Shown one piece after another: positions 14,719-28,156 of a stretch of DNA of 64,000 nucleotides; the first letter of the stretch is position 1, and each line of letters opens with the position of its first letter. The position numbers and the translations under genes are program-made. The stretch covers positions 1 to 64,000 of the forward strand of contig JAIQGL010000030.1 in assembly GCA_020072585.1 (NCBI GenBank), read 5' to 3'. The notes below the pieces were generated by a model that saw only the letters and a program-made list of their open reading frames with translations, ran no database searches and had not been told where the DNA came from. Origin of the DNA: Terriglobia bacterium (lineage in GTDB: Bacteria > Acidobacteriota > Terriglobia > Terriglobales > Acidobacteriaceae).

Positions 14719-16194
14719 ATGGATCCGCTAAATCGTTCGCACTCCATTTTCGGGATCGTTCCACCTCATATCCTGGAAGCAATTGTCAGGTCGGGGGAGC
14801 CCAAGGAAAGAGAATGGGCACTCCGTGCTTTGGCGGCTGACACCACCATCCGCAGTTCGCGCATGAGTCTTCACTTAATGAAGGCTCTTACCAGGGTGAC
14901 TCCGGTACCGGCGATCGCGCCTCACAAGCAGCGCAATGTGTACACGGCGAACAACACGACGACCCTGCCGGGGACTCTGGTCCGCTCGGAAGGGCAAGGT
15001 CCAACCAGTGACGTCTCCGTGAATGAGGCTTATGACGGTCTTGGCGCCACATTCGATCTGTACTGGAACATCTTCCAACGTAACTCGATTGACGATGCCG
15101 GAATGAACCTGCCCGCAACCGTCCACTATGACCAGAAATACGACAACGCATTCTGGGACGGCTCGCAGATGGTTTTCGGCGACGGCGATGGAATTTACTT
15201 CAATCGCTTCACGATTGCAGTAGACGTGATAGGCCATGAGCTTACTCATGGCGTCACTGCGCATGAAGCCAATCTCGCTTATCATGATCAGCCTGGAGCG
15301 CTCAACGAGAGTGTCTCGGACGTCTTTGGGTCCTTGGTAAAACAGTATGTGCACTCTCCACAGCAGACGGCCAGCCAGGCCGATTGGCTGATTGGCGCGG
15401 GGCTCTTCACTGCCAAAGTGCAGGGCGTCGCGCTCCGGTCCATGAAGGCGCCGGGAACCGCATACAACGACAGGGTGCTGGGCAAAGATCCACAACCGGC
15501 ACACATGAATAACTACGTCAACACGACGGCGGACAATGGCGGTGTGCACATCAACTCCGGGATCCCGAACCATGCTTTCTATCTGGCCGCGGTGGCCTTG
15601 GGAGGCCATGCCTGGGAGAAGGCCGGGGCGATCTGGTATGCCACCATATGCGATTCGCGCCTCTCTGCGAATGCGCAGTTCCTGGACTTCGCCAACCTGA
15701 CAGCGGAAAATGCCGCCAAGCTTTTTGGCGCGGCGGAACAGCAGGCTGTTATTAATGCCTGGCAGCAGGTTGGGATCAATATTGTCCCCATACCGCTGAA
15801 GATCTTCGGTAACTGGACACTCCATTTTAGCTGGGGTCCCACCAATAATTATTCTTCAGTCAACCTCATGTTTAACAGCAACGGAACGTTCTCCGGCGGA
15901 GCCAATGGCAAGTGGTCTCAGCAGGACGGTACGATCTTGCTGAGCTTCGACTCCGGCCCGGCGAAATATGCAGGCACGGTGGACGGCAATATAGGTACTG
16001 GCGCCATGTCAACTTTCAGCGGGCTTGAAGGTTGCTGGTATCTCTCAAAACAGGGGACGGTCGGCGTTTTGCCTGAGCTTGGCGCTGTGAGCCAACCAAA
16101 GATAATCGACGTAAATGGAAACGTCGTCAGCGGAGAGTTGGAGCTGACAGGCGTTGGTACCAAAGGTACACGCGTTGTGAAACGCGCTGGCTGA
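14719..16194 (+). CDS. M4 metallopeptidase, protealysin-like, with extra C-terminal beta domain
   Basis: A thermolysin-family zinc protease of 491 residues. No Sec signal is present; instead a short protealysin-type propeptide starts with IFGIVPPHILEAIV. Catalytic residues are H173, E174 and H177 in HELTH, third zinc ligand E197 in ALNESVSD (20 residues on, as in thermolysin), and the proton-donor His277 in DNGGVHINSGIPNHAF. The peptidase domain ends near 355. A further domain at about 364-455 is nearly duplicated as the upstream 111-residue protein. An emfourin-like inhibitor gene follows, the arrangement known for protealysin. The lack of a signal suggests cytoplasmic storage or non-Sec export. 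Confidence 0.94.
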   Translation: MDPLNRSHSIFGIVPPHILEAIVRSGEPKEREWALRALAADTTIRSSRMSLHLMKALTRVTPVPAIAPHKQRNVYTANNTTTLPGTLVRSEGQGPTSDVSVNEAYDGLGATFDLYWNIFQRNSIDDAGMNLPATVHYDQKYDNAFWDGSQMVFGDGDGIYFNRFTIAVDVIGHELTHGVTAHEANLAYHDQPGALNESVSDVFGSLVKQYVHSPQQTASQADWLIGAGLFTAKVQGVALRSMKAPGTAYNDRVLGKDPQPAHMNNYVNTTADNGGVHINSGIPNHAFYLAAVALGGHAWEKAGAIWYATICDSRLSANAQFLDFANLTAENAAKLFGAAEQQAVINAWQQVGINIVPIPLKIFGNWTLHFSWGPTNNYSSVNLMFNSNGTFSGGANGKWSQQDGTILLSFDSGPAKYAGTVDGNIGTGAMSTFSGLEGCWYLSKQGTVGVLPELGAVSQPKIIDVNGNVVSGELELTGVGTKGTRVVKRAG

Positions 16195-16437
16195 AACTTT
16201 AGCCGCCGGAGCGGCCCTCGCCGCTCCGGCGGAGCCCCTTACTGCGTCTGCGGCGCCGCAAGCGCAATAGGGTCGGCCCCTGGAGGAGTGGTGATTCTGG
16301 CAAGGATCAATCGGGGACTCGTTGAAACCATATTCGCAGCCGGCCTGCTGGTTTTCGCGGCGGGAACACAGTTATCATGCAATCATCGTACTCATTCTCC
16401 CGCGAAAAACCACTCACAGCCCACAAAGGAGCGAGTA

Positions 16438-16791
16438 ATGAAATTCACTTTCATTCGAAGTGGAGGTTTCGCAGGTCCTGCTACAGCGCTAAAAGGCGAG
16501 GTCTCTTTTGAAGGCGGCTCTGCTAAAGCCACATCCGATTTCGGCTATCATCGCGATCTTGCACCGGAGGAGATTCAGACGCTGCAATCGAGCTTCATGC
16601 ATCTCCCCCAGCAGCAGCCAGCATCCCGCCCCCGGCCTGACCAATATCAATACGACATTACGCTCGCCTGGGATGACGGCCGCGTGCAAAACCTGACCGT
16701 ATATGGTGACGCATCCCCCGGGACCGAAAACCTGCTCGACTGGGTTCGTCACGAATGTGACCGTATCTGGACGCATCGCACTAATCAATGA
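16438..16791 (+). CDS. Emfourin-like protein inhibitor of M4 peptidase
   Basis: This 117-residue protein begins MKFTFIRSGGFAG, the signature start of emfourin, the protein inhibitor encoded next to protealysin. It continues with LAPEEIQTLQSSF, PDQYQYDITLAW and a C-terminal LLDWVRHECDRIW helix. AAAGGAG six bases before the ATG at 16438 sets the start. The frame stays open upstream to GTG codons at 16288/16291, next to a GGAGGAG, and would add a hydrophobic N-terminal segment (ETIFAAGLLVFAAG) followed by a cysteine. A second, exported form is therefore possible. It lies 243 bp after the protease gene, so it likely controls that enzyme's activity inside the cell. Confidence 0.85.
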   Translation: MKFTFIRSGGFAGPATALKGEVSFEGGSAKATSDFGYHRDLAPEEIQTLQSSFMHLPQQQPASRPRPDQYQYDITLAWDDGRVQNLTVYGDASPGTENLLDWVRHECDRIWTHRTNQ

Positions 16792-18326: not shown

Positions 18327-19547
18327 CTACGGTCCTGGTTCGTAAACGACGCCGGCGAACAGGATTGCGTTGGTCTGGGTGTCGCACAGCAGCAGGGCGA
18401 AGGGACGATTGAAGACCAGGGTCTTCACGCGGGACACTGAGGCTGAAATTAACCCGCCGGTTGCGGCGGCGGCGGTGGTGCCCTCTTCATCCACTTCCAG
18501 GCGGGTCTTGTGTACTACGCCTCCGAGGAAAAAGCTGGGCGAACCCATGGGAGCAAAGTCGGCGCCGGAGTGGAAAGCGGCGCTCATGCCCATGCGTGAG
18601 AGAGATTCTTCAAGCTCTTCTTTATAGTCGAGCGTGAAGCGCGGCAGGCGCAAATCCAGCTCGATCTCCCTCGGGCCGGACCGTAGCTGCTGCATGGAGA
18701 TTTTTGCCAGGACCTGCTCCGGGCTGCTCCCCGGCGAGGGCAGAATGGCGTAAAAGCGTATATGCGACGAGCGGTAATCGAGCGCGGCCGCCTCAAAGCC
18801 ATCGCCTTTGCGATAAGCCCCGGAAATGGAAGGATTGTGCATCATCTGCACCTTCTTCCCGCCGCCGGAAGCCAGGCGAAAATTCTCCTGATGGGTTTCG
18901 TTCTTGGGGAACTGGTCGCTCCACGTGCCGTGAAAATAGACCGCGTTGGTGAGCAGGGCGCGCATGCTGCGGAGTTGCTCGGGAGAGATAAGGCCGGAGA
19001 TCTTGCCATGGGTCTTCTCTTTTACCCATTTCTCGATCTCTGCGGCAGCTGAGGGCTGCCCGAAATTGAGCGTGGTGGCGTCTGCCTGGTAAGATTCGCG
19101 GCACCGCTTCACGAATTCCGCCGACATGGGCAAACTGCGGTCTGACCATAAGCCATTTGCGATGGAGAGCTCAGCTCCTCGCTCCGCTTGTAGCACCTTC
19201 ATCAGGGCCGATGCGGAGCCGCGCAACTGGTCGTCGGTGAGGTTTTGCGGAATGGCCAGCGCCTGCCGCATGGCATTGCGCGTGGCGCCGCCAGCGCCGC
19301 TCTCGGTCATGGCCAGCGCCATGAAGATGCTGAGCGGAGAAATAAAGACGTTTTGCTGCCGCCGCTGCGCGGCAAGATCAACGACCATCCTGATTCCCAT
19401 ATCATTCACAGCCGCCGAAGCGGCTTTGCCTTGCGCAATGAATGCGGGGTCAAGCGGTTTGTCAGAGGGCCGGAAGGTGAATCCCAACGCGGCTGCCGCC
19501 AGCCCGATCACAACCATGCCGCACCACAGGTAAGTCTTGCGTTTCAT
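18327..19547 (-). CDS. Serpin family protease inhibitor
   Basis: A 406-residue serpin with an N-terminal membrane/signal segment (MKRKTYLWCGMVVIGLAAAA). Serpin landmarks include FISPLSIFMALAMTESGAGG, LLTNAVYFHGTWSDQF, the reactive-centre hinge EEGTTAAAATGG (about 350-362) and the closing FNRPFALLLCDTQTNAILF. The small-residue hinge is the pattern of inhibitory serpins, which trap serine (sometimes cysteine) proteases by loop insertion. The start is set by AGGAGG before the ATG at 19547. It probably acts in the periplasm or anchored outside. It lies near but outside the M4/emfourin cluster on the opposite strand; serpins do not normally target metalloproteases. Confidence 0.93.
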   Translation of the reverse strand: MKRKTYLWCGMVVIGLAAAALGFTFRPSDKPLDPAFIAQGKAASAAVNDMGIRMVVDLAAQRRQQNVFISPLSIFMALAMTESGAGGATRNAMRQALAIPQNLTDDQLRGSASALMKVLQAERGAELSIANGLWSDRSLPMSAEFVKRCRESYQADATTLNFGQPSAAAEIEKWVKEKTHGKISGLISPEQLRSMRALLTNAVYFHGTWSDQFPKNETHQENFRLASGGGKKVQMMHNPSISGAYRKGDGFEAAALDYRSSHIRFYAILPSPGSSPEQVLAKISMQQLRSGPREIELDLRLPRFTLDYKEELEESLSRMGMSAAFHSGADFAPMGSPSFFLGGVVHKTRLEVDEEGTTAAAATGGLISASVSRVKTLVFNRPFALLLCDTQTNAILFAGVVYEPGP

Positions 19548-19840
19548 ACCTTGCGCCTCCTGATCGCGCATGATGAATCAGCTTTAAGCCGTACAAACCC
19601 CGACGGCTCGTCAACACGTGTGCCCTGATGCCATTAGAATGCAGAGCGCCCAGGCTTTATGCGGTTCCAGGCTTTAGGCCCAGGACTTATGCGTGAATCT
19701 CTGCCTTGGCCTTTATCATCTAATCATTGACTTAGTCGATGATCGTGGCTAAGGTGAATACAGATCTTTGACAAAAAGGGACGGCCAAAAGTTCCTTTTC
19801 CGTAGGCTCTTTCCGCGTTTCTCGCCGGAATGGCCGAAAT

Positions 19841-20213
19841 GGGGGCGTCACGGCTTCGACGGAAATGCTTGCGGCCAAGAGGCATACCGGGGCGCATTCC
19901 CCCGTAAGTGGTGCAAAAACAATAATTGCCAACTCTAATCAGTTTGCATACGCAGCTTAATTAAATAAGTTGCCGCTCTCCGCAGCTTCGCCTACGGGCT
20001 GCGAAAGGGCGTCACACAGTAGGCTGGCTTGGTGACCCTATGTCCGGGGGCCTCCGGCGAGAACCACGGGCTAGCGGTTTGCGTTTCTTGTCCGTTCTAA
20101 GCGCAACACGCGAATCTGGCGGGGTAATTCCCGTTGGGTGAACTGGACTAAGTATGTAGGCTCTTGACCAGTAACATTTTCGGACGTGGGTTCAACTCCC
20201 ACCGCCTCCACCA
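19841..20213 (+). ncRNA. ssrA: Transfer-messenger RNA (tmRNA)
   Basis: A 373-nt tmRNA. The 5' end GGGGGCGTCACGGCTTCGAC and 3' end CCGCCTCCACCA pair as an alanine-type acceptor, and a T arm lies near the 3' end (GTGGGTTCAACTCCCAC). The resume frame at 19913-19960 encodes the tag AKTIIANSNQFAYAA then TAA, ending in the expected AA degradation signal. Several pseudoknot-forming GC stems lie between. tmRNA with SmpB rescues stalled ribosomes and marks the incomplete protein for proteolysis. CCA is encoded. Confidence 0.97.
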
Positions 20214-20347
20214 ATTTTTCTCAAAGTCCCGACCCGAAGCGTAGTTGAGGGCCGGTAGCCTTCTCGGTTCGATACGACCAGGTATTTTCAAGAGAATGCA
20301 AAGGCTTCAATCTCCTCCCCGATTTTCCTGCATCCTTGGAGCATAGA

Positions 20348-20599
20348 ATGAAAATTGAGATACGTTCCTGCCCCACATGAGAGAACAACAAAGCCAAGGT
20401 CACGAGTCTCGTGGCCCTCATTAAAAAGCAGCTCGGCATTGAAGCCGTGGTTACACCTGGCAAGACTGGTCAATTCGAAGTGCTCGCCGATGGGGAGAGA
20501 ATTGCCGGGCGCGGTGGAAACTGGCTCACAAGAAGTTTTGGCGCAGGCTATCCCGATCTCGATGGCGTGATTGAGCAACTCCAGAAGCGCCGCAGCTAG
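20348..20599 (+). CDS. Rdx/SelW-like selenoprotein with in-frame UGA (CxxU)
   Basis: Reading from ATG 20348, with GGAG six bases upstream, the frame gives MKIEIRSCPT, then TGA at 20378, then 72 more codons to a stop at 20597. Taking TGA as selenocysteine produces an 83-residue thioredoxin-like Rdx protein with the redox motif C8-P-T-U11 after the first beta strand, exactly where the SelW/SelT/SelH family carries CxxU or CxxC. Downstream are LIKKQLGIEAVV, PGKTGQFEVLADGE and a C-terminal GYPDLDGVIEQLQK helix, as in the family. A hairpin starting at the UGA (20378-20420) matches bacterial SECIS geometry. Automatic callers would report only a GTG-started fragment from 20411. Family members are probably thiol/selenol oxidoreductases. 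Confidence 0.8.
20378..20420 (+). promoter_or_regulatory. Candidate bacterial SECIS element
   Basis: From the UGA, TGAG (20378-20381) can pair with CTCA (20417-20420). An upper 8-bp stem GGTCACGA/TCGTGGCC (20398-20405 with 20409-20416, one G-U pair) carries the loop GTC about 26 nt after the UGA. A 40-nt-class hairpin at the UGA with a GU in its apical loop is what SelB recognises in E. coli fdhF-type elements. The lower part has a 16-nt unpaired 5' side. Recognition by a SelB is inferred; the pairing is seen. Confidence 0.6.
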
Positions 20600-20648
20600 C
20601 TTGGCCCGTATACCTCCTATCCAACTCAGCTCTAGAAGAACTTAAAAT

Positions 20649-20742
20649 GTCGGACACCGAAAGCTGATGTTCGGCCGATGCGCGGTGCTCAGCCGGCTAC
20701 CAGTTTCGGTGCCCGACTTTTTGCCGGAAATATGGTTCCGGC
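20649..20742 (+). terminator. Long hairpin with T-run plus a second hairpin, after the selenoprotein gene
   Basis: GTCGG-a-CACCGAAA (20649-20662) pairs with TTTCGGTG-c-CCGAC (20704-20717), 13 bp with one mismatch, followed at once by TTTTT. The loop is unusually long (about 41 nt) and GC-rich. Immediately after comes GCCGGAA-ATATGG-TTCCGGC (20723-20742), a 7-bp perfect hairpin. It begins 50 bp after the selenoprotein stop and may terminate that transcript. The big internal loop and double structure leave room for a small structured RNA instead. The surrounding 20600-20868 holds no coding frame. Confidence 0.5.
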
Positions 20743-20868
20743 TCCTTACCATCTTTTTGTGACGGCAAGGAAAGTCAGAAAAAATTAAGCGACCAATTTA
20801 AATTGAAACGCTATCTCTGGCAGGCCAGAAGCGTTTGAAACAGCGACTAAAGATTTGGGGTGTGATAT

Positions 20869-21195
20869 TTAGCGTCGAAGAGGTATGACCATGTGCGAGC
20901 GGTTCTGGCTGAACGCCGGAGCGCCATGGTTATCGAGCAATGCAAGGCTTATTGCAGCATCCTGTTGGCGAAACACTCTTGAAACAGTCGCCTGTAGCTT
21001 TCTGAAGTGAACATTTGAGGACCGGATACTTGCGCAGCTGGGAACCACGTAATTGAAGTCAACGGTCACCACCGGCGGCGTGTTGTCATACGGATCAGGG
21101 TCGTATGCGTCTGACCAGCAGCATGCCGTGCCGGCCAGAAGAAACATAAAGCCGAGGACCGTACCGCGCAAAAATCTGTGACCCAGCAAATGCAT
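20869..21195 (-). CDS. Hypothetical exported protein
   Basis: A 108-residue frame with a basic N terminus and a hydrophobic segment (GTVLGFMFLLAGTACC) that could be a signal peptide. The cysteines at its end do not form a canonical lipobox. The mature part has a DPDPYDNTPP stretch, a short beta-like VVTVDFNYVV and a basic helix. I recognise no family, and no good ribosome-binding site is evident. It may be genuine but orphan. Confidence 0.4.
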   Translation of the reverse strand: MHLLGHRFLRGTVLGFMFLLAGTACCWSDAYDPDPYDNTPPVVTVDFNYVVPSCASIRSSNVHFRKLQATVSRVFRQQDAAISLALLDNHGAPAFSQNRSHMVIPLRR

Positions 21196-21397: not shown

Positions 21398-24300
21398 TTA
21401 GTGATTGATGGTCAGGTTCAGATTGATGCTGGCGCTCTGCGTGCCGCTGGTGCCAGTCACCGTAATCACCGCGTTGGTCGGCGGACGCACTGTGGGAGTG
21501 CCCGGACCTGATCCTCCACCGCAGGCGCTCAGGCCTGCGATCAGGCCTATCGCCAACAGCATGAACACAACCTGCTTGCGTTTCCGTCGCAGGCCGAAGA
21601 GCACTCCGGCAAAGACGCCGGCAAACGCGAATAGCGTCCCGTATCCAGAGTGCGGCAAACCGGCGCTCTGCGTTCCAGAAACCGTCACCGTGATGGGAAC
21701 ATTGCTGGAAGCGGCGTTTACATGCACTGATCCCGGGCTCACACTGCACGTGGCTCCAGCAGGCGCGCCAGAGCAGGCAAACACAATGGTTCCGGTGAAT
21801 CCTTGCGGGTTAAGCGCAATGTTGAACGTTGCGTTCTGTCCTGCCTGGATCGTTGCGCTGGTTCCGCCCGTGCCGGCTACAAGACCAAACGCCGGAGCTG
21901 GGCCAACCGTTACATTCACCGCGGACGTGGTAACCGCCTTGTAAGTACTGTCGCCTATGTAGGCAACGCTAATGGCATGGTTCCCTGCCGCCAGTGCCGC
22001 CTGGATAGAAGCTTCCGGCGCTGCGCCTGGCGTTGGCGAAGCAATCGCTACGGGAGATCCCAGCGCCGTAGCTCCGTCAAAGAACTGGACCGTGCCAGTG
22101 GGCAAAATCGCCCCGGCATTCTGCACTCGCACCTGCAAGAGCGTGGTGGGCTGGCCCGCCACTGCACTCACGGTAACTACCGGTGTGGCCTGCCCGACGG
22201 TCAGAACGCCATTCACTGCCGTCACGCTGTAGTTGCCGAGCTTGGCCGTGGGGTCTACCAGCGCAGGAATGACGGGATAAGTCCCGATCAGGCTGGCAGG
22301 GACTGCGGTGGTGGAGAACGTTGCACTGATGCTGTCACCGTTCTTAATACCAACAATAGAGCCGTTCAACAGCGGGTTCGGATCGCCATAAGCCCGCGTG
22401 ACATTCGCCGCCGTGACCGAAAGCGCCGCAACAGTCACGGTAAGTGTGCCATTCGTCTTTGAAACGTTGTAGTTCCCTGCCTTGAGACCAGGATCAACCA
22501 GCGATGCCACAATCGCATAAGTGCCGATCGGACTTGCTGGGCTGGCGCTGCTGAAGGTGAGTGTAATCACGTCACCATTCTTCAGGCCGTTGATTGCGCC
22601 GGTGAAAGCCGGGTTGGGATCGCCATAGAGGCGCGTGGCATCTGCGGCGGAGACGCTCAGGGCCGCAGGGCTCACGATAAGAGTTCCATTGTTCGATGTC
22701 ACGGCGTAATTGCCAAGCTTTGCTCCCGGATCAGCCAGCGTACCCACGATTGGGTAAGAGCCTGCCGAGCTGCCGATCACAGCGGCGCTGCTGAAAGACG
22801 CCGTGATGTCATCGGCGAGCTTCACACCGCTCAGCGTGCCGGTGAACACCGGGTTAGGGTCGCCATACAACCGGCTGGCGCTGGTTGCCGTTACCGAAAG
22901 CGGCGCCTGGCTGACCGTGAGCGTTCCGTTGTTCAACGTAACCGTGTAGTTGCCGAGCTTGCTGGTTGGATCCACTGGAGCAGGAATAATCGCGAACGCT
23001 CCCACCGCACTGGCCGGTGTGGCTGCCGTGGTGAATGAGGCCGTAATGTTGTCTGCATTCCGTAAGCCGGCGAAGGTGGCGGTGAATGCCGGGTTGGCAT
23101 CTCCGTACAAACGCGTTGCATTGTTGGCGGAGATCGAAAGCGCTGCCGGTGTAATGGTCAGCGTTCCGTTGTTCAACGTCACTGCATAGTTCCCGGCTTT
23201 GCCCGTTGGATCCACCAATGCCGGTACCAGAACGTAAGAGCCTACCGGACTGGTCGGGGCGGCTCCGGCTCCGGAGACCGTAGCTGTAATGTTGTCATTG
23301 TTCTTCAGCCCAACGATGGTCCCTGCAAATGCCGGGTTCGGATCGCCATAAACGCGGGTTGCGCTACCGGCTGATATCGTCAGAGGCGCAGCGGTAATCG
23401 TGAGCACTCCGTTATTGGAAGTTACCGCATAGTTACCGGCTTTGGCGGTTGGATCGACCAGTGTTGGCACAATGGAGAAAGTTCCCACCGGGCTGCCCGC
23501 AGTCGCCGGGCTGATAAATGTTGCTGTGATGTTGTCCGCGTTCCTGATTCCCGTGATTGTCCCGGTGAAAGATGGATTCGGATCACCATACACGCGGCTT
23601 GCGTTGGTTCCGGTCACGGTCAGCGGAGCAGGATTGATGGTAAGAGTTCCGTTCAGTGACGTAACCGCGTAGTTGCTGAGTTTCGCCGTTGGGTCCACCA
23701 GCGTGGGCACGATTGGTGAAGTTTCAGCCGGGCTCGTCACCGTGGCGGCGCTGGCAAAAGTGGCTGTGATGTTGTCAGCGTTCTTGATGCCGGTGATTGT
23801 GCCGGTAAAGCTCGGGTTTGGATCACCGTACAAGCGGTTTGCATTCGCTCCAGCCACCGTAAGCGGAGCAGGAGAAACCGTGAGCGATCCGTTGTTGGAG
23901 GTCACAGTGTAGTTAGCCAGCTTCGCCGTGGGATCCACGAGTGTGGGCACAATGGTGAAAGCTCCCACTGGGCTTGTAACCACGGCCACGCTGGCAAAAG
24001 TTGCGGTGATGTTGTCAGCGTTCTTGATTCCCGTGATCGTGCCTGCCAGTGTCGGGTTAGGATCGCCATACGCGCGGCTGGCGTTAGCGGCAGTCACAAT
24101 CAAGGCGGCAGGCGTAATCGTAAGGGCACCGTTGGTGCTGCTCACCGTGTAGTTAGCCAGCTTTCCCGTCGGGTCAACCAGCACGGGCACCAGGGGATAC
24201 GTTCCCACAGCGCTCAGTGCGTCCGCTCCGGAAACGGTTGCGGTAATGTTGTCGCCATTCTTCAGACCAACAATCGTGCCTGTAAACGCCGGATTGGGAT

Positions 24301-27300
24301 CGCCATAGATCCGGCTGGCGTTGCCTGCGGTCACAGTTAGAGCGGCCTGCGTAATTGTGAGCGTGCCATTGCTCGAAGTCACCGCATAGTTGCCCAGCTT
24401 GCTCGTAGGATCAACCAGCGTGGGCACAATCGCAAAAGTTCCTGCATTGCTGGCTGGTGTGGCTACGCTGGCAAAAGTCGCGGTGATCGCGTCACCGTTT
24501 TTGAGTCCTGTTACGGTGCCGGCAAAGGCCGGATTAGCGTCGCCATAGATGCGCGTGGCATCCGTGGCGGTTACGGTCAAGGGCGCTGCTCCAATCGTGA
24601 GCGTGCCGTTATTCGAAATTACCGTGTAATTGCCGAGCTTGGCCGTTGGATCAGCCAGAGTTGGCACAATCGCAAACGTGCCTACGGGGCTGGTGACCAA
24701 TGCCACGCTGGCGAACGTTGCCGTAATGTTGTCTGCGTTCTTGATTCCAGTGATGGAGCCGATGAAAGCAGGATTCGCATCACCATAGATGCGGCTTGCG
24801 TTGGCGCCTGTGACGGTCAGTTGCGCCGGCGCCACGGTGAGCGTTCCATTGGTTGACGTGACCGTGTAATTGCCGAGCTTCGATGTTAGATCCACCAGGG
24901 TCGGCACGATGGGGAAAGCGCCAACCGGGCTGCCTGCCACCGCGGTGCTGGCAAAAGTTGCCGTGATGTTGTCAGAGTTCTTGATCCCCGTGATTGTTCC
25001 TGCAAAGACCGGGTTGGCATCGCCATAAATGCGGCTAGTGCTGGTGGCGCTCACACTCAAAGGTGCGGGGTCCACTGTGAGCGTTCCATTGGTGGAAAGC
25101 ACGGTGTAGTTGCCCAGCTTGCTGGTTGGATCAACCAGAACAGGCACGATTGAAAATGTTCCAACAGAGCTCGCGGGTGTTGCTGTGGTAGTGAAAGTCG
25201 CGGTGATGTTGTCAGCGTTCTTGATTCCGGTGAGCGTGCCGTTGAAAGCCGGGTTTGCATCACCGTAACCACGGCTGAAATTGTCCGCTGCTACCGCCAG
25301 TGGCGCTGGAGTAACAGTCAGTGTTCCGCTGGTGGAAGTAAAGGTATAGTTCCCTGCCTTGTTGTTCGGATCAACCAGGGAAGCCACAATGGGATAAGCC
25401 CCCACCGGACTGCCCGCGACTGCGGGACTGCTGAAGGTAGCTGTAATAATGTCGCCATTCTTCAGTCCAACCAGCGTGCCGGTCAACGCCGGGTTCGGAT
25501 CGCCATAAAGGCGGCTGGCGTCTGGCGCGGTTGCAGACAAGGATGCGGGAACCACGGTCAGAACACCGGTCGCGACCACCGTATAGTTGCCAAGTTTATT
25601 TCCCGGATCGCTGAAGGTTGCCGTAATGGGATAGGTCCCCACCGGGCTTGTGGCATCGGCTGTCGAGCTGAAGATTCCGGTGATGGCGTCGCCATTCTTG
25701 AGTCCAGTGACGGTTCCGGTGAAAGCAGGATTAGCATCGCCATAGGCGCGACTCACGTTTGTGGCAGCAGCCGTCAAGGGCGCAGGGGTCACGGTCACAT
25801 TGCCGCTTGAAGTGACTGTGTAATTGTTCACGTTGAAGCCGCCCACGGGCACCAATACTCCAGTAATGGGATATGTGCCTACCGGGCTAGTTGAAACCGC
25901 CGTGCTGGAGAAGGTGGCAGTCGCCTGGTCTCCCGCTTTCAGTCCCACCACTGTGCCCGTAATCGCCGGGTTAGGATCGCCGTAAAGACGGCTCACGTTA
26001 GTTCCCGTAAGCACCAGAGGCGCTTTGGTGATCGTTAGCACCCCATTGACGAACGTGAAGATATAGTTCGTCGCCGCCAGTGTGCCAATGGAGCAAGTAA
26101 TTGTCTGCGTCCCTGCGGGCGTATTCACGCCAGCAGATGAAGTGCAGTTGGCGGTCCCAGTGACAACGGCGGTCGTCTCGTTGTTCAGGAAACCTGAAAT
26201 CACAAAGGTGAAAGGCGGGTTCGCGTCGCCGTAGACTCGTGTGGCGGGTTGCGTCGTCACCGTCAGAGTCGCTTTGGTCACGGTAAGGGTCGATGTGCCA
26301 CTGCTGGCACCGAACTGATTGTCCCCGGCAAAGCTGACACTTAATGCTCCCACATAGGTGCCGGCGTTAATCGGAATCGAATTCTGCACCAGGCTCACAT
26401 TGGGGAGCGTGGCTACACCCGTTGCGTTGGTCACTGCCGTACCCACAACCAGCCCGTTGACTGAAAATGTGATCGTACGTCCCACCACTGCGGTGCCGTT
26501 TGAAGTCCGATGCAATGTGGTTGAGAGCGTTGTGGTCCCAAAATATGTTCCGGTGGAATTGGCAACAATGAAATTTGTAGCTGATTGCGGCGCGGAGACG
26601 CTCACAACCGTTGTCGCCGAGTTGTTGACTGGATTGGTATCAACAGCAGATGAGTTGCTCGAGGCGGCGGTGTTGCTGATGGTATCGCCATTCAGAAGCG
26701 TGCTGAGGGTCGATCCAACAAGGGTAACTGTGCCCGATTGCCCGCTGGCCATTGAAGCAAATGTGATAGTGCGGTTTAGACCGGCGCCTTTGTCGCAGAC
26801 GCCGCCTGGCCCGGCTGTGCAGGAAACAAAAGTCATACTGGCCTTGGGCAGCAAATCGTTGATTGCAACTGAAGCGGTGCTGGGGCCGTTGTTGGTGATC
26901 GTGATGTTATAGGTGATCTGATTTCCGGCTGTTACCGGGTTGGGAGAAGCGGTCTGTGTGACCGATAAATCCGTATGCGCGCAGCTTCGCGGTGGATAAG
27001 CGGCAACGCTCTGGATCTGCCCTGCTCCTGCAATGGCTGTATCGCCAACCAGTGTGGGAACAACTCCGGGAAGGATGTTAAAGACCGCCAGGCCGAAAGC
27101 ATCGTCCGCGGAGTAAAGGAACAGTCCGGAATTGTCGCTGCCCATTCCTGCCGGGGTATGTCCTGTTGCAATATTGGCCAGGCCGATGCTGGTAAGGCTG
27201 CCGTCCGGATTGACGGTAAAAGAATTCAGGTCTTGGCTGCCCTGGTTACTCTGATAAAGGATTGTGTTGTCAGGCGTTAGAAACACCACGTTCGAATCAT

Positions 27301-28156
27301 TGCCGGCCGCTGAAAACGGGCTGCCCAGGATCGGCGTTAAAGCGCCACTCGGCGCCACCGTCCACGCGTCAGTGATGGAAGACGTTGTACCGCCTTCTGC
27401 GGCGTACAGCAAGGTCCCGTCGCAATTAAAATCCAATCCACCCACAAGCCCAGTGCCGCCCTTGGCAAACGGAGAACCGGTTACTGCTGTCAGCGAACCA
27501 TCAACGCCGCTGATGGTAAAGACTGAAACTGATGCCTGGTGTGAGACAGCCAAAAAACGGCCATCGCCCGAAATCTTCATGCCCACCATGGGCGTTGGCA
27601 ATAAAGTGGCGGTGGCAGATGGGCTCAGTGATCCGTTCACTGCGACGCTGAAGGTCTTGATCGTACCGTTGCTTGAGGCCATCAGGAAGTGGCCGTCAGG
27701 TGTTGCTGCTAATGAAATCCCAGCACAGCTATCCAGGGTCAGTCCCGTGGCAAATGGAGAGCCTGCGACTGCCGTCAACGCGCCGGTGCCCGGTGCGATG
27801 CGAAACACACTCACGGTCTGGTCGCCGCTGTTGGAGACAAACAGAAGGTTGCTCGCCAGATTGGTTGTGATGCGGTCAATGCCGGCGCAGGCAACTGTAG
27901 CTCCAGTGCCGCCTGTATTCACGTTTCCAATCGAGGTGGCTACGCCGCCGGTGTCAACTGAAAATATTGAAATGGTATTGGACACGCCGCTCTGATTATT
28001 GACGTAGACAAAGTTGGTCTGGGCTTGCAAGCCCAGCGGGCATAGCATGGCCAGAATGCACAAGAGTGCTGCGAAAGGCCAAAATGAGCCAGCGACGTTT
28101 TGCTTTCCTCGCATGGCAGGTTCGGCACAAATCAAGTTCGCATCGTGAATGCTCAT
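21398..28156 (-). CDS. Giant exported protein with propeller, DUF11, Ig and 17 MBG repeats
   Basis: A 2252-residue secreted protein. Domains in order: signal peptide (about 1-46), a lactonase/YncE-like beta-propeller (about 47-395), a DUF11 conserved-repeat domain (about 396-510), an Ig-like domain (about 525-620), 17 MBG domains of about 80 residues (about 625-1986, each with YGDxNPxFxG), an Ig-like domain, a further Ig-like segment, and a C-terminal hydrophobic helix with RRKRK plus a lipobox-like LSACGGG region. AAGGAG precedes the ATG. Such proteins are probably adhesive or structural surface proteins; the propeller might bind or hydrolyse a ligand, but no active site is evident. A structured leader lies upstream. 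Confidence 0.9.
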   Translation of the reverse strand: MSIHDANLICAEPAMRGKQNVAGSFWPFAALLCILAMLCPLGLQAQTNFVYVNNQSGVSNTISIFSVDTGGVATSIGNVNTGGTGATVACAGIDRITTNLASNLLFVSNSGDQTVSVFRIAPGTGALTAVAGSPFATGLTLDSCAGISLAATPDGHFLMASSNGTIKTFSVAVNGSLSPSATATLLPTPMVGMKISGDGRFLAVSHQASVSVFTISGVDGSLTAVTGSPFAKGGTGLVGGLDFNCDGTLLYAAEGGTTSSITDAWTVAPSGALTPILGSPFSAAGNDSNVVFLTPDNTILYQSNQGSQDLNSFTVNPDGSLTSIGLANIATGHTPAGMGSDNSGLFLYSADDAFGLAVFNILPGVVPTLVGDTAIAGAGQIQSVAAYPPRSCAHTDLSVTQTASPNPVTAGNQITYNITITNNGPSTASVAINDLLPKASMTFVSCTAGPGGVCDKGAGLNRTITFASMASGQSGTVTLVGSTLSTLLNGDTISNTAASSNSSAVDTNPVNNSATTVVSVSAPQSATNFIVANSTGTYFGTTTLSTTLHRTSNGTAVVGRTITFSVNGLVVGTAVTNATGVATLPNVSLVQNSIPINAGTYVGALSVSFAGDNQFGASSGTSTLTVTKATLTVTTQPATRVYGDANPPFTFVISGFLNNETTAVVTGTANCTSSAGVNTPAGTQTITCSIGTLAATNYIFTFVNGVLTITKAPLVLTGTNVSRLYGDPNPAITGTVVGLKAGDQATATFSSTAVSTSPVGTYPITGVLVPVGGFNVNNYTVTSSGNVTVTPAPLTAAATNVSRAYGDANPAFTGTVTGLKNGDAITGIFSSTADATSPVGTYPITATFSDPGNKLGNYTVVATGVLTVVPASLSATAPDASRLYGDPNPALTGTLVGLKNGDIITATFSSPAVAGSPVGAYPIVASLVDPNNKAGNYTFTSTSGTLTVTPAPLAVAADNFSRGYGDANPAFNGTLTGIKNADNITATFTTTATPASSVGTFSIVPVLVDPTSKLGNYTVLSTNGTLTVDPAPLSVSATSTSRIYGDANPVFAGTITGIKNSDNITATFASTAVAGSPVGAFPIVPTLVDLTSKLGNYTVTSTNGTLTVAPAQLTVTGANASRIYGDANPAFIGSITGIKNADNITATFASVALVTSPVGTFAIVPTLADPTAKLGNYTVISNNGTLTIGAAPLTVTATDATRIYGDANPAFAGTVTGLKNGDAITATFASVATPASNAGTFAIVPTLVDPTSKLGNYAVTSSNGTLTITQAALTVTAGNASRIYGDPNPAFTGTIVGLKNGDNITATVSGADALSAVGTYPLVPVLVDPTGKLANYTVSSTNGALTITPAALIVTAANASRAYGDPNPTLAGTITGIKNADNITATFASVAVVTSPVGAFTIVPTLVDPTAKLANYTVTSNNGSLTVSPAPLTVAGANANRLYGDPNPSFTGTITGIKNADNITATFASAATVTSPAETSPIVPTLVDPTAKLSNYAVTSLNGTLTINPAPLTVTGTNASRVYGDPNPSFTGTITGIRNADNITATFISPATAGSPVGTFSIVPTLVDPTAKAGNYAVTSNNGVLTITAAPLTISAGSATRVYGDPNPAFAGTIVGLKNNDNITATVSGAGAAPTSPVGSYVLVPALVDPTGKAGNYAVTLNNGTLTITPAALSISANNATRLYGDANPAFTATFAGLRNADNITASFTTAATPASAVGAFAIIPAPVDPTSKLGNYTVTLNNGTLTVSQAPLSVTATSASRLYGDPNPVFTGTLSGVKLADDITASFSSAAVIGSSAGSYPIVGTLADPGAKLGNYAVTSNNGTLIVSPAALSVSAADATRLYGDPNPAFTGAINGLKNGDVITLTFSSASPASPIGTYAIVASLVDPGLKAGNYNVSKTNGTLTVTVAALSVTAANVTRAYGDPNPLLNGSIVGIKNGDSISATFSTTAVPASLIGTYPVIPALVDPTAKLGNYSVTAVNGVLTVGQATPVVTVSAVAGQPTTLLQVRVQNAGAILPTGTVQFFDGATALGSPVAIASPTPGAAPEASIQAALAAGNHAISVAYIGDSTYKAVTTSAVNVTVGPAPAFGLVAGTGGTSATIQAGQNATFNIALNPQGFTGTIVFACSGAPAGATCSVSPGSVHVNAASSNVPITVTVSGTQSAGLPHSGYGTLFAFAGVFAGVLFGLRRKRKQVVFMLLAIGLIAGLSACGGGSGPGTPTVRPPTNAVITVTGTSGTQSASINLNLTINH
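22197..26280 (-). repeat. Tandem array of 17 MBG-domain repeats (about 240 bp each)
   Basis: Seventeen in-frame units of about 240 bp lie head to tail. Each encodes a beta strand, then R-x-YGD(A/P)NP-x-(F/L), GxKN(G/A)D, ITATFxSxA, SPVGTxPIVPxLVDP and KLGNYxVTSxNGTLT. Units differ at most positions yet keep length and frame, pointing to old duplication with some later exchange. The first unit (nearest 26280) is the most divergent. The array causes many regularly spaced false frames on the opposite strand. Confidence 0.93.

Follow-up and report, generated by a model that had tools for sequence, protein, structure and literature searches.

The window analyzed here is a 64,000-nucleotide stretch of a Terriglobia bacterium genome (assembly GCA_020072585.1, contig JAIQGL010000030.1, positions 1 to 64,000 of the forward strand), located on contig C8 of the 6.9 Mb genome, and it carries a short gene for a putative SelW-like selenoprotein. 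The frame is opened by ATG 20348, closed by TAG 20597-20599, and consists of 83 codons, with a sole internal TGA at codon 11 and 72 open codons between that TGA and the TAG. Translated with selenocysteine (Sec) at codon 11, the product reads MKIEIRSCPTUENNKAKV...QKRRS. The original prediction, which was made from the sequence alone, had described an Rdx/SelW-like selenoprotein whose UGA falls within C-P-T-U; the start codon, the GGAG six bases upstream, the position of the TGA, and the 72 further codons were all confirmed from the sequence. It had also stated that a gene caller that does not read UGA as Sec would give a GTG-started fragment lacking the active site, and the open reading frame (ORF) listed in this frame is indeed a GTG-started frame of 62 amino acids at 20411-20599. 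Purine-rich sites precede the ATG in many of the relatives compared, not in all; L034 has no clear one. The features of the locus are collected in Table 1.

Table 1 Features of the selenoprotein locus. Positions are those of the window.
Feature	Position	Strand	Basis
SelW-like selenoprotein coding sequence, 83 residues, TAG included	20348..20599	+	Frame, homologues, constraint on both sides of the TGA
GGAG, probable ribosome-binding site, six bases 5' of the ATG	20338..20341	+	Sequence
Cys8 codon of the CxxU motif	20369..20371	+	Cys codon in 49 of 50 distinct sequences
TGA presumably read as Sec, codon 11, within C-P-T-TGA	20378..20380	+	TGA in 49 of 50 distinct sequences; Sec machinery in genome
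Putative bacterial SECIS hairpin inside the coding sequence, 8-pair stem GGUCACGA/UCGUGGCC, loop GUC	20398..20416	+	Covariation, published model
Sub-group signature RGGNWLTRSFGAGYP, residues 55-69	20510..20554	+	Loop longer than in ordinary SelW-like proteins
Long hairpin ending TTTTT, possible transcription terminator	20643..20723	+	Fold z-score -3.5

Homologues of the window protein keep the TGA. A search with this protein matched 6 of 100 genomes, its own included, with one TGA in each match. A scan of named genomes, which used the single window protein as query and so reaches close relatives only, returned nine loci, all titled Acidobacteria, Acidobacteriaceae, Acidobacteriales, or Terriglobia. 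Profile A1 was searched within the phylum only, against draws of class and phylum genomes in which the initial look scored only some candidates per genome, and it matched 16 of 399 class genomes and 47 of 396 phylum genomes. By the tool's counts, a TGA was present in 15/16 class matches and 51/53 phylum matches. The sole class match without it (L045) has GGA, a Gly codon, at codon 11, and the two phylum matches without it do not cover the active site: G633 is truncated by a contig edge beyond the active site, and G710 appears to be a segment of what we take to be a dihydroorotase-type protein. The 57 rows that were fetched and translated gave 50 distinct sequences, window included, with TGA at codon 11 in 49 and Gly in one (L045), and with Cys at codon 8 in 49 and Arg in one (L035). 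Cys at codon 11, which the original prediction had proposed to look for in close relatives, did not occur among the 50 sequences, and this absence fits a remark in PMC1794560, according to which Cys homologues of SelW-like and of a few further selenoproteins are very rare or absent in organisms that contain Sec. No confirmed relative was found in viral contigs or, by tblastn, in plasmids.

The original prediction would have failed if no homologue aligned on both sides of the TGA together, but the homologues do align through codons 1-10 and 12-80 together. Across ten sequences (window included, 45 pairs), the ratio of nonsynonymous to synonymous differences (pN/pS) was 0.19 for codons 1-80, 0.16 for codons 1-10, and 0.20 for codons 12-80. 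These values indicate purifying selection on the codons at both sides of the TGA and, because the constraint is similar on either side, suggest that both stretches behave as one protein.

The absence of selA, selB, selC, and selD from the genome had been set beforehand as another point at which the prediction would fail, but all four were found. The matches to selA (543 bits), selB (385 bits), and selD (372 bits) are over their cut-offs, and tRNA-Sec(UCA) scored 73.9 bits and was called by ARAGORN as tRNA-SeC with anticodon tca. The four genes lie on four separate contigs. The selD match contains one in-frame TGA, and translation of that gene (L018, contig C72) across it gives AAGUASK; judged from its sequence, this selD probably encodes a selenoprotein as well. 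Of the 25 open frames in the window that span 300 codons or more, 12 end in TGA, so it does not look like a general sense codon here.

A hairpin that would serve as the selenocysteine insertion sequence (SECIS), an element absent from the original prediction, begins 17 nt downstream of the TGA. The limits given for bacterial SECIS elements in PMC13188914 include a loop of 3-9 nt with G in the first two places, a stem of 4-16 pairs, 16-37 nt from UGA to loop, and an energy of ≤ -7.5 kcal/mol, and the window hairpin lies within them (loop GUC, 8 pairs, 25 nt, centroid -11.5 kcal/mol). For comparison, 21 distinct rows of the sub-group that shares a GGN loop with the window protein (described below) were used, leaving out L045 (Gly), L035 and L058 (disrupted), exact duplicates, and rows without the loop. 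In this set 164 of 168 cells pair, and both sides have changed at four of the eight pairs. The covariation score was reached by 0/500 shuffles, a control that ignores kinship, and pairing fell to 30-54% when the partner was shifted by 1 to 3 columns, a comparison that does allow for kinship. RNAalifold recovers the same hairpin. Synonymous resampling (5000 trials) gave a mean of 124.6 paired cells and a maximum of 141, as compared to the 164 observed, which argues that the covariation exceeds what synonymous coding gives. The core CGAGTCTCG occurs in 26 of the 50 distinct sequences (17/22 with the GGN loop and 9/28 without the signature, one of the latter being the cut-off L035), and the ordinary SelW-like L064, L067, L068, L070, L076, and L077 carry it as well. 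Rfam, searched with 19600-20900 under a lax threshold, returned only the transfer-messenger RNA (tmRNA) and weak matches, with no SECIS family among them.

The predicted Rdx/SelW membership stands on comparisons other than single-sequence hidden Markov models, which remained below cut-off as detailed below. Profiles were built from 20 sub-group sequences (A6) and from eight ordinary SelW-like sequences (A7), four of which pass TIGR02174. An hhalign comparison of A6 with A7 gave a probability of 99.5% and an E value of 3e-23 over columns 1-84, which indicates full-length homology to accepted members. A profile search of the PDB with A3, which has six ordinary SelW-like rows inside it, found 2ljk at E 9.8e-5. 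In both predicted structures the CPTU motif occupies residues 8-11, between strand 1 (residues 3-7) and helix 1 (residues 12-29), and the predicted fold is the thioredoxin-like fold of the Rdx type; when the structure was re-predicted from A6 alone, SelW-related structures remained the top matches. The assignment to Rdx/SelW is therefore well supported by the profile-profile comparison, the predicted fold, and intermediate sequences.

Taken together, the sequence evidence (a recoded frame, a TGA that is conserved, a hairpin that covaries, the Sec machinery, and the family assignment) supports the view that the locus is an 83-residue SelW/Rdx-type selenoprotein gene in which UGA is decoded as Sec via the downstream hairpin. 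We give this reading a probability of about 95%, and the selenoprotein interpretation of the original prediction was upheld in the tests that were run. In the proposed mechanism, the ribosome would start at ATG 20348, SelB bound to the hairpin 17 nt downstream would deliver Sec-tRNA-Sec at the UGA, and translation would then continue to the TAG. The product would adopt a small thioredoxin-like fold in which Cys8-Pro-Thr-Sec11 follows strand 1 and precedes helix 1. Based on knowledge of the family, Cys8 and Sec11 before helix 1 would form the site of the presumed Rdx thiol/selenol exchange, and the protein would alternate between a reduced state and a selenenylsulfide or Sec adduct. The protein is most likely a soluble thiol/selenol oxidoreductase; that Sec is actually inserted in this organism, that the redox chemistry is as described, and that no partner gene is dedicated to the protein are all inferred.

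A number of observations weigh against this reading. The gene is patchy: matches came from 16 of 399 class genomes, of which ten, counting those of the window and L045, have the GGN form, and it was not found in G001 and G007, same-genus genomes with selB. Three relatives are damaged or altered: L035, where Arg replaces Cys8, has a disrupted frame, L058 carries a TAG, and L045 (genome G216) has Gly (GGA) at the Sec codon in an open frame, so Sec loss does occur. L045 gave pN/pS values of 0.26-0.42 versus six relatives, as compared to 0.13-0.25 among those six; it retains six of the eight hairpin pairs, and its genome still has selB. This single case looks like relaxed constraint after loss of Sec. 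The bare pattern is also weaker evidence than had been claimed. A scan of both strands of the window for a CxxTGA preceded by an ATG no more than 25 codons away and followed by 60 or more open codons matched twice, at ATG 20348 and at 16673. The latter frame (+ strand) has 61 open codons after its TGA, lies out of frame within an emfourin-type ORF, and is probably due to chance. The placement of the TGA alone was thus not taken as proof, and it is conservation that lifts the frame at 20348 above chance.

The remaining adverse points concern the family scores and the hairpin. As a single sequence the window protein matches Pfam Rdx (PF10262) with an E value of 0.0093 and 16.6 bits versus a cut-off of 22.6, and TIGR02174 (13.8 versus 34.2 bits) and NF041051 (16.5 versus 88 bits) are likewise below cut-off, so no curated Rdx/SelW profile was passed. 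A match to the family, though below cut-off, is detectable in 20/20 sub-group members at E ≤ 1 (best 3.5e-9), and we therefore refer to the protein as a diverged relative of the family and not as a curated member. With A6 only, the PDB search placed Rdx chains at E 0.14-0.84, behind chance-like matches such as a glycoside hydrolase (E 0.004). The window alone retains all eight hairpin pairs in 1632 of 20,000 synonymous resamplings, and for this reason the SECIS evidence rests on the comparison. The fold z-score of the window hairpin is -1.0, so covariation with the synonymous-codon control was used in place of fold energy. In minimum free energy folds of single 57-nt sequences, the hairpin is not shown in L043 and L044, and several ordinary SelW-like rows fold otherwise.

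The window protein belongs to a sub-group marked by the pattern RGGNxxTRxFGAGYP before the last helix, where the A6/A7 profile alignment has a 7-residue gap. In ten sequences, 14 of the 15 residues at 55-69 are invariant. The motif GGNxx[TS]R is present in 22 rows, window included, of a 47-row tree from which L035, L058, L072, and duplicates were left out. All but one of these rows group together (21/22, 96/89); L059 is outside, at an unresolved fork. A tree of the loop-free first 53 residues needs two label changes, one being sufficient in 2% of bootstrap trees, and does not show a single origin of the group. So far the sub-group has been seen only in Acidobacteriota, where the search mainly looked. 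Tentatively, and at slightly less than even odds, we propose that the GGN-loop proteins are a separate selenoprotein sub-family, to date observed in Acidobacteriota only, that practically never uses Cys, that the extra loop gives them a substrate or partner unlike that of ordinary SelW, and that loss of Sec, as in L045, starts decay.

A rival that agrees on the decoding and differs on function is that the sub-group left the ordinary SelW function to serve a single dedicated partner, which would dock on the GGN loop. The near invariance of residues 55-69, and the absence of the loop from ordinary SelW-like proteins of the same phylum, speak for this reading. Against it, 65 ORFs of at least 70 amino acids were picked mechanically from up to 3.5 kb of flank (less at some loci) around ten loci, the window being one of them, and only one family was shared, by two loci and at different distances, so the gene context indicates no partner. 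We regard this alternative as rather unlikely.

Two further alternatives concern the TGA and are both very improbable. That it is read as another residue, Trp or by near-cognate read-through, would draw on the read-through of UGA that exists in bacteria, but in the alignment with ordinary SelW-like proteins codon 11 falls on the second redox residue of CxxC/CxxU, the SECIS-type hairpin downstream of it covaries, tRNA-Sec and SelB are present, and TGA ends 12 of the 25 long frames. That it is a real stop in a decayed gene, the GTG-started 62-codon fragment being chance or a remnant, agrees with translation table 11, with those 12 terminated frames, and with the similar pattern at 16673, but a nonsense mutation would not persist so widely (49 of 50 distinct sequences), the codons on either side of it are constrained, and the genome has the full Sec machinery.

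Other features of the window were noted around the gene. Directly upstream lies a tmRNA gene (ssrA, 19841-20213, tag ANSNQFAYAA); ARAGORN scans of 13 further loci, of which some had no more than 1.5 kb of flank, found no tmRNA. An integration event at the 3' end of the tmRNA gene was considered and rejected, as its last 25 bases have no second copy with up to 3 mismatches in the window, the only sequence searched. The long downstream hairpin in Table 1 was not among the predictions of a simple terminator scan. An M4 thermolysin-type metallopeptidase (14719-16194, +) and an emfourin-type protein (16288-16791, +) lie near a serpin (18327-19571, -); the emfourin family is named for an M4 peptidase inhibitor. 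On the other side, 21398-28156 (-) is a frame of 2252 codons whose N-terminal 352 residues match a beta-propeller (lactonase) family and are followed by many YGD.NP-type repeats, which are presumably of the MBG/YDG type.

The selenoprotein gene is a clear case that automated annotation would probably truncate and that falls below the cut-offs of the curated rescue models. The covarying SECIS, whose core CGAGUCUCG is common to several ordinary SelW-like genes of the phylum, could be used as a search model, and the role of bacterial SelW-like proteins becomes somewhat more approachable with a family that is almost devoid of Cys forms and has a distinctive loop.

With regard to known systems, the solved structures 2p0g and 2fa8 (titled SelW-related), 2obk (SelT/selW/selH domain), 2npb (mouse SelW), and 2ljk (MIEN1) share 15-27% identity with the window protein, as do 2oka, 2ojl, and 3dex, which we take to be Rdx members; the extra loop is not in the solved SelW-related structures. 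Ordinary SelW-like genes of the phylum (L064, L065, L068, L077, and others) have TGA at the same codon, lack the GGN loop, and fall in other parts of the tree; these four pass TIGR02174, whereas the window protein does not. PMC9312934 and PMC13188914 list SelW-like, with PF10262 and a CxxU motif, among the prokaryotic selenoprotein families, and the deep-Sep paper mentions three known selenoprotein genes in one Acidobacteriota genome (PMC12013277). Among the titles found on SelW-like/Rdx selenoproteins of bacteria, Acidobacteriota, Terriglobia, and soil, none described the GGN sub-group. The window protein shares with bacterial SelW-like selenoproteins (PF10262 Rdx, TIGR02174, NF041051) the CxxU position and the small thioredoxin-like fold, and it differs from them in scoring below the curated cut-offs and in its longer loop. 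Since SelW-like selenoproteins are already catalogued, the locus, very probably a real selenoprotein gene, represents a new, diverged SelW-like variant with a longer loop.
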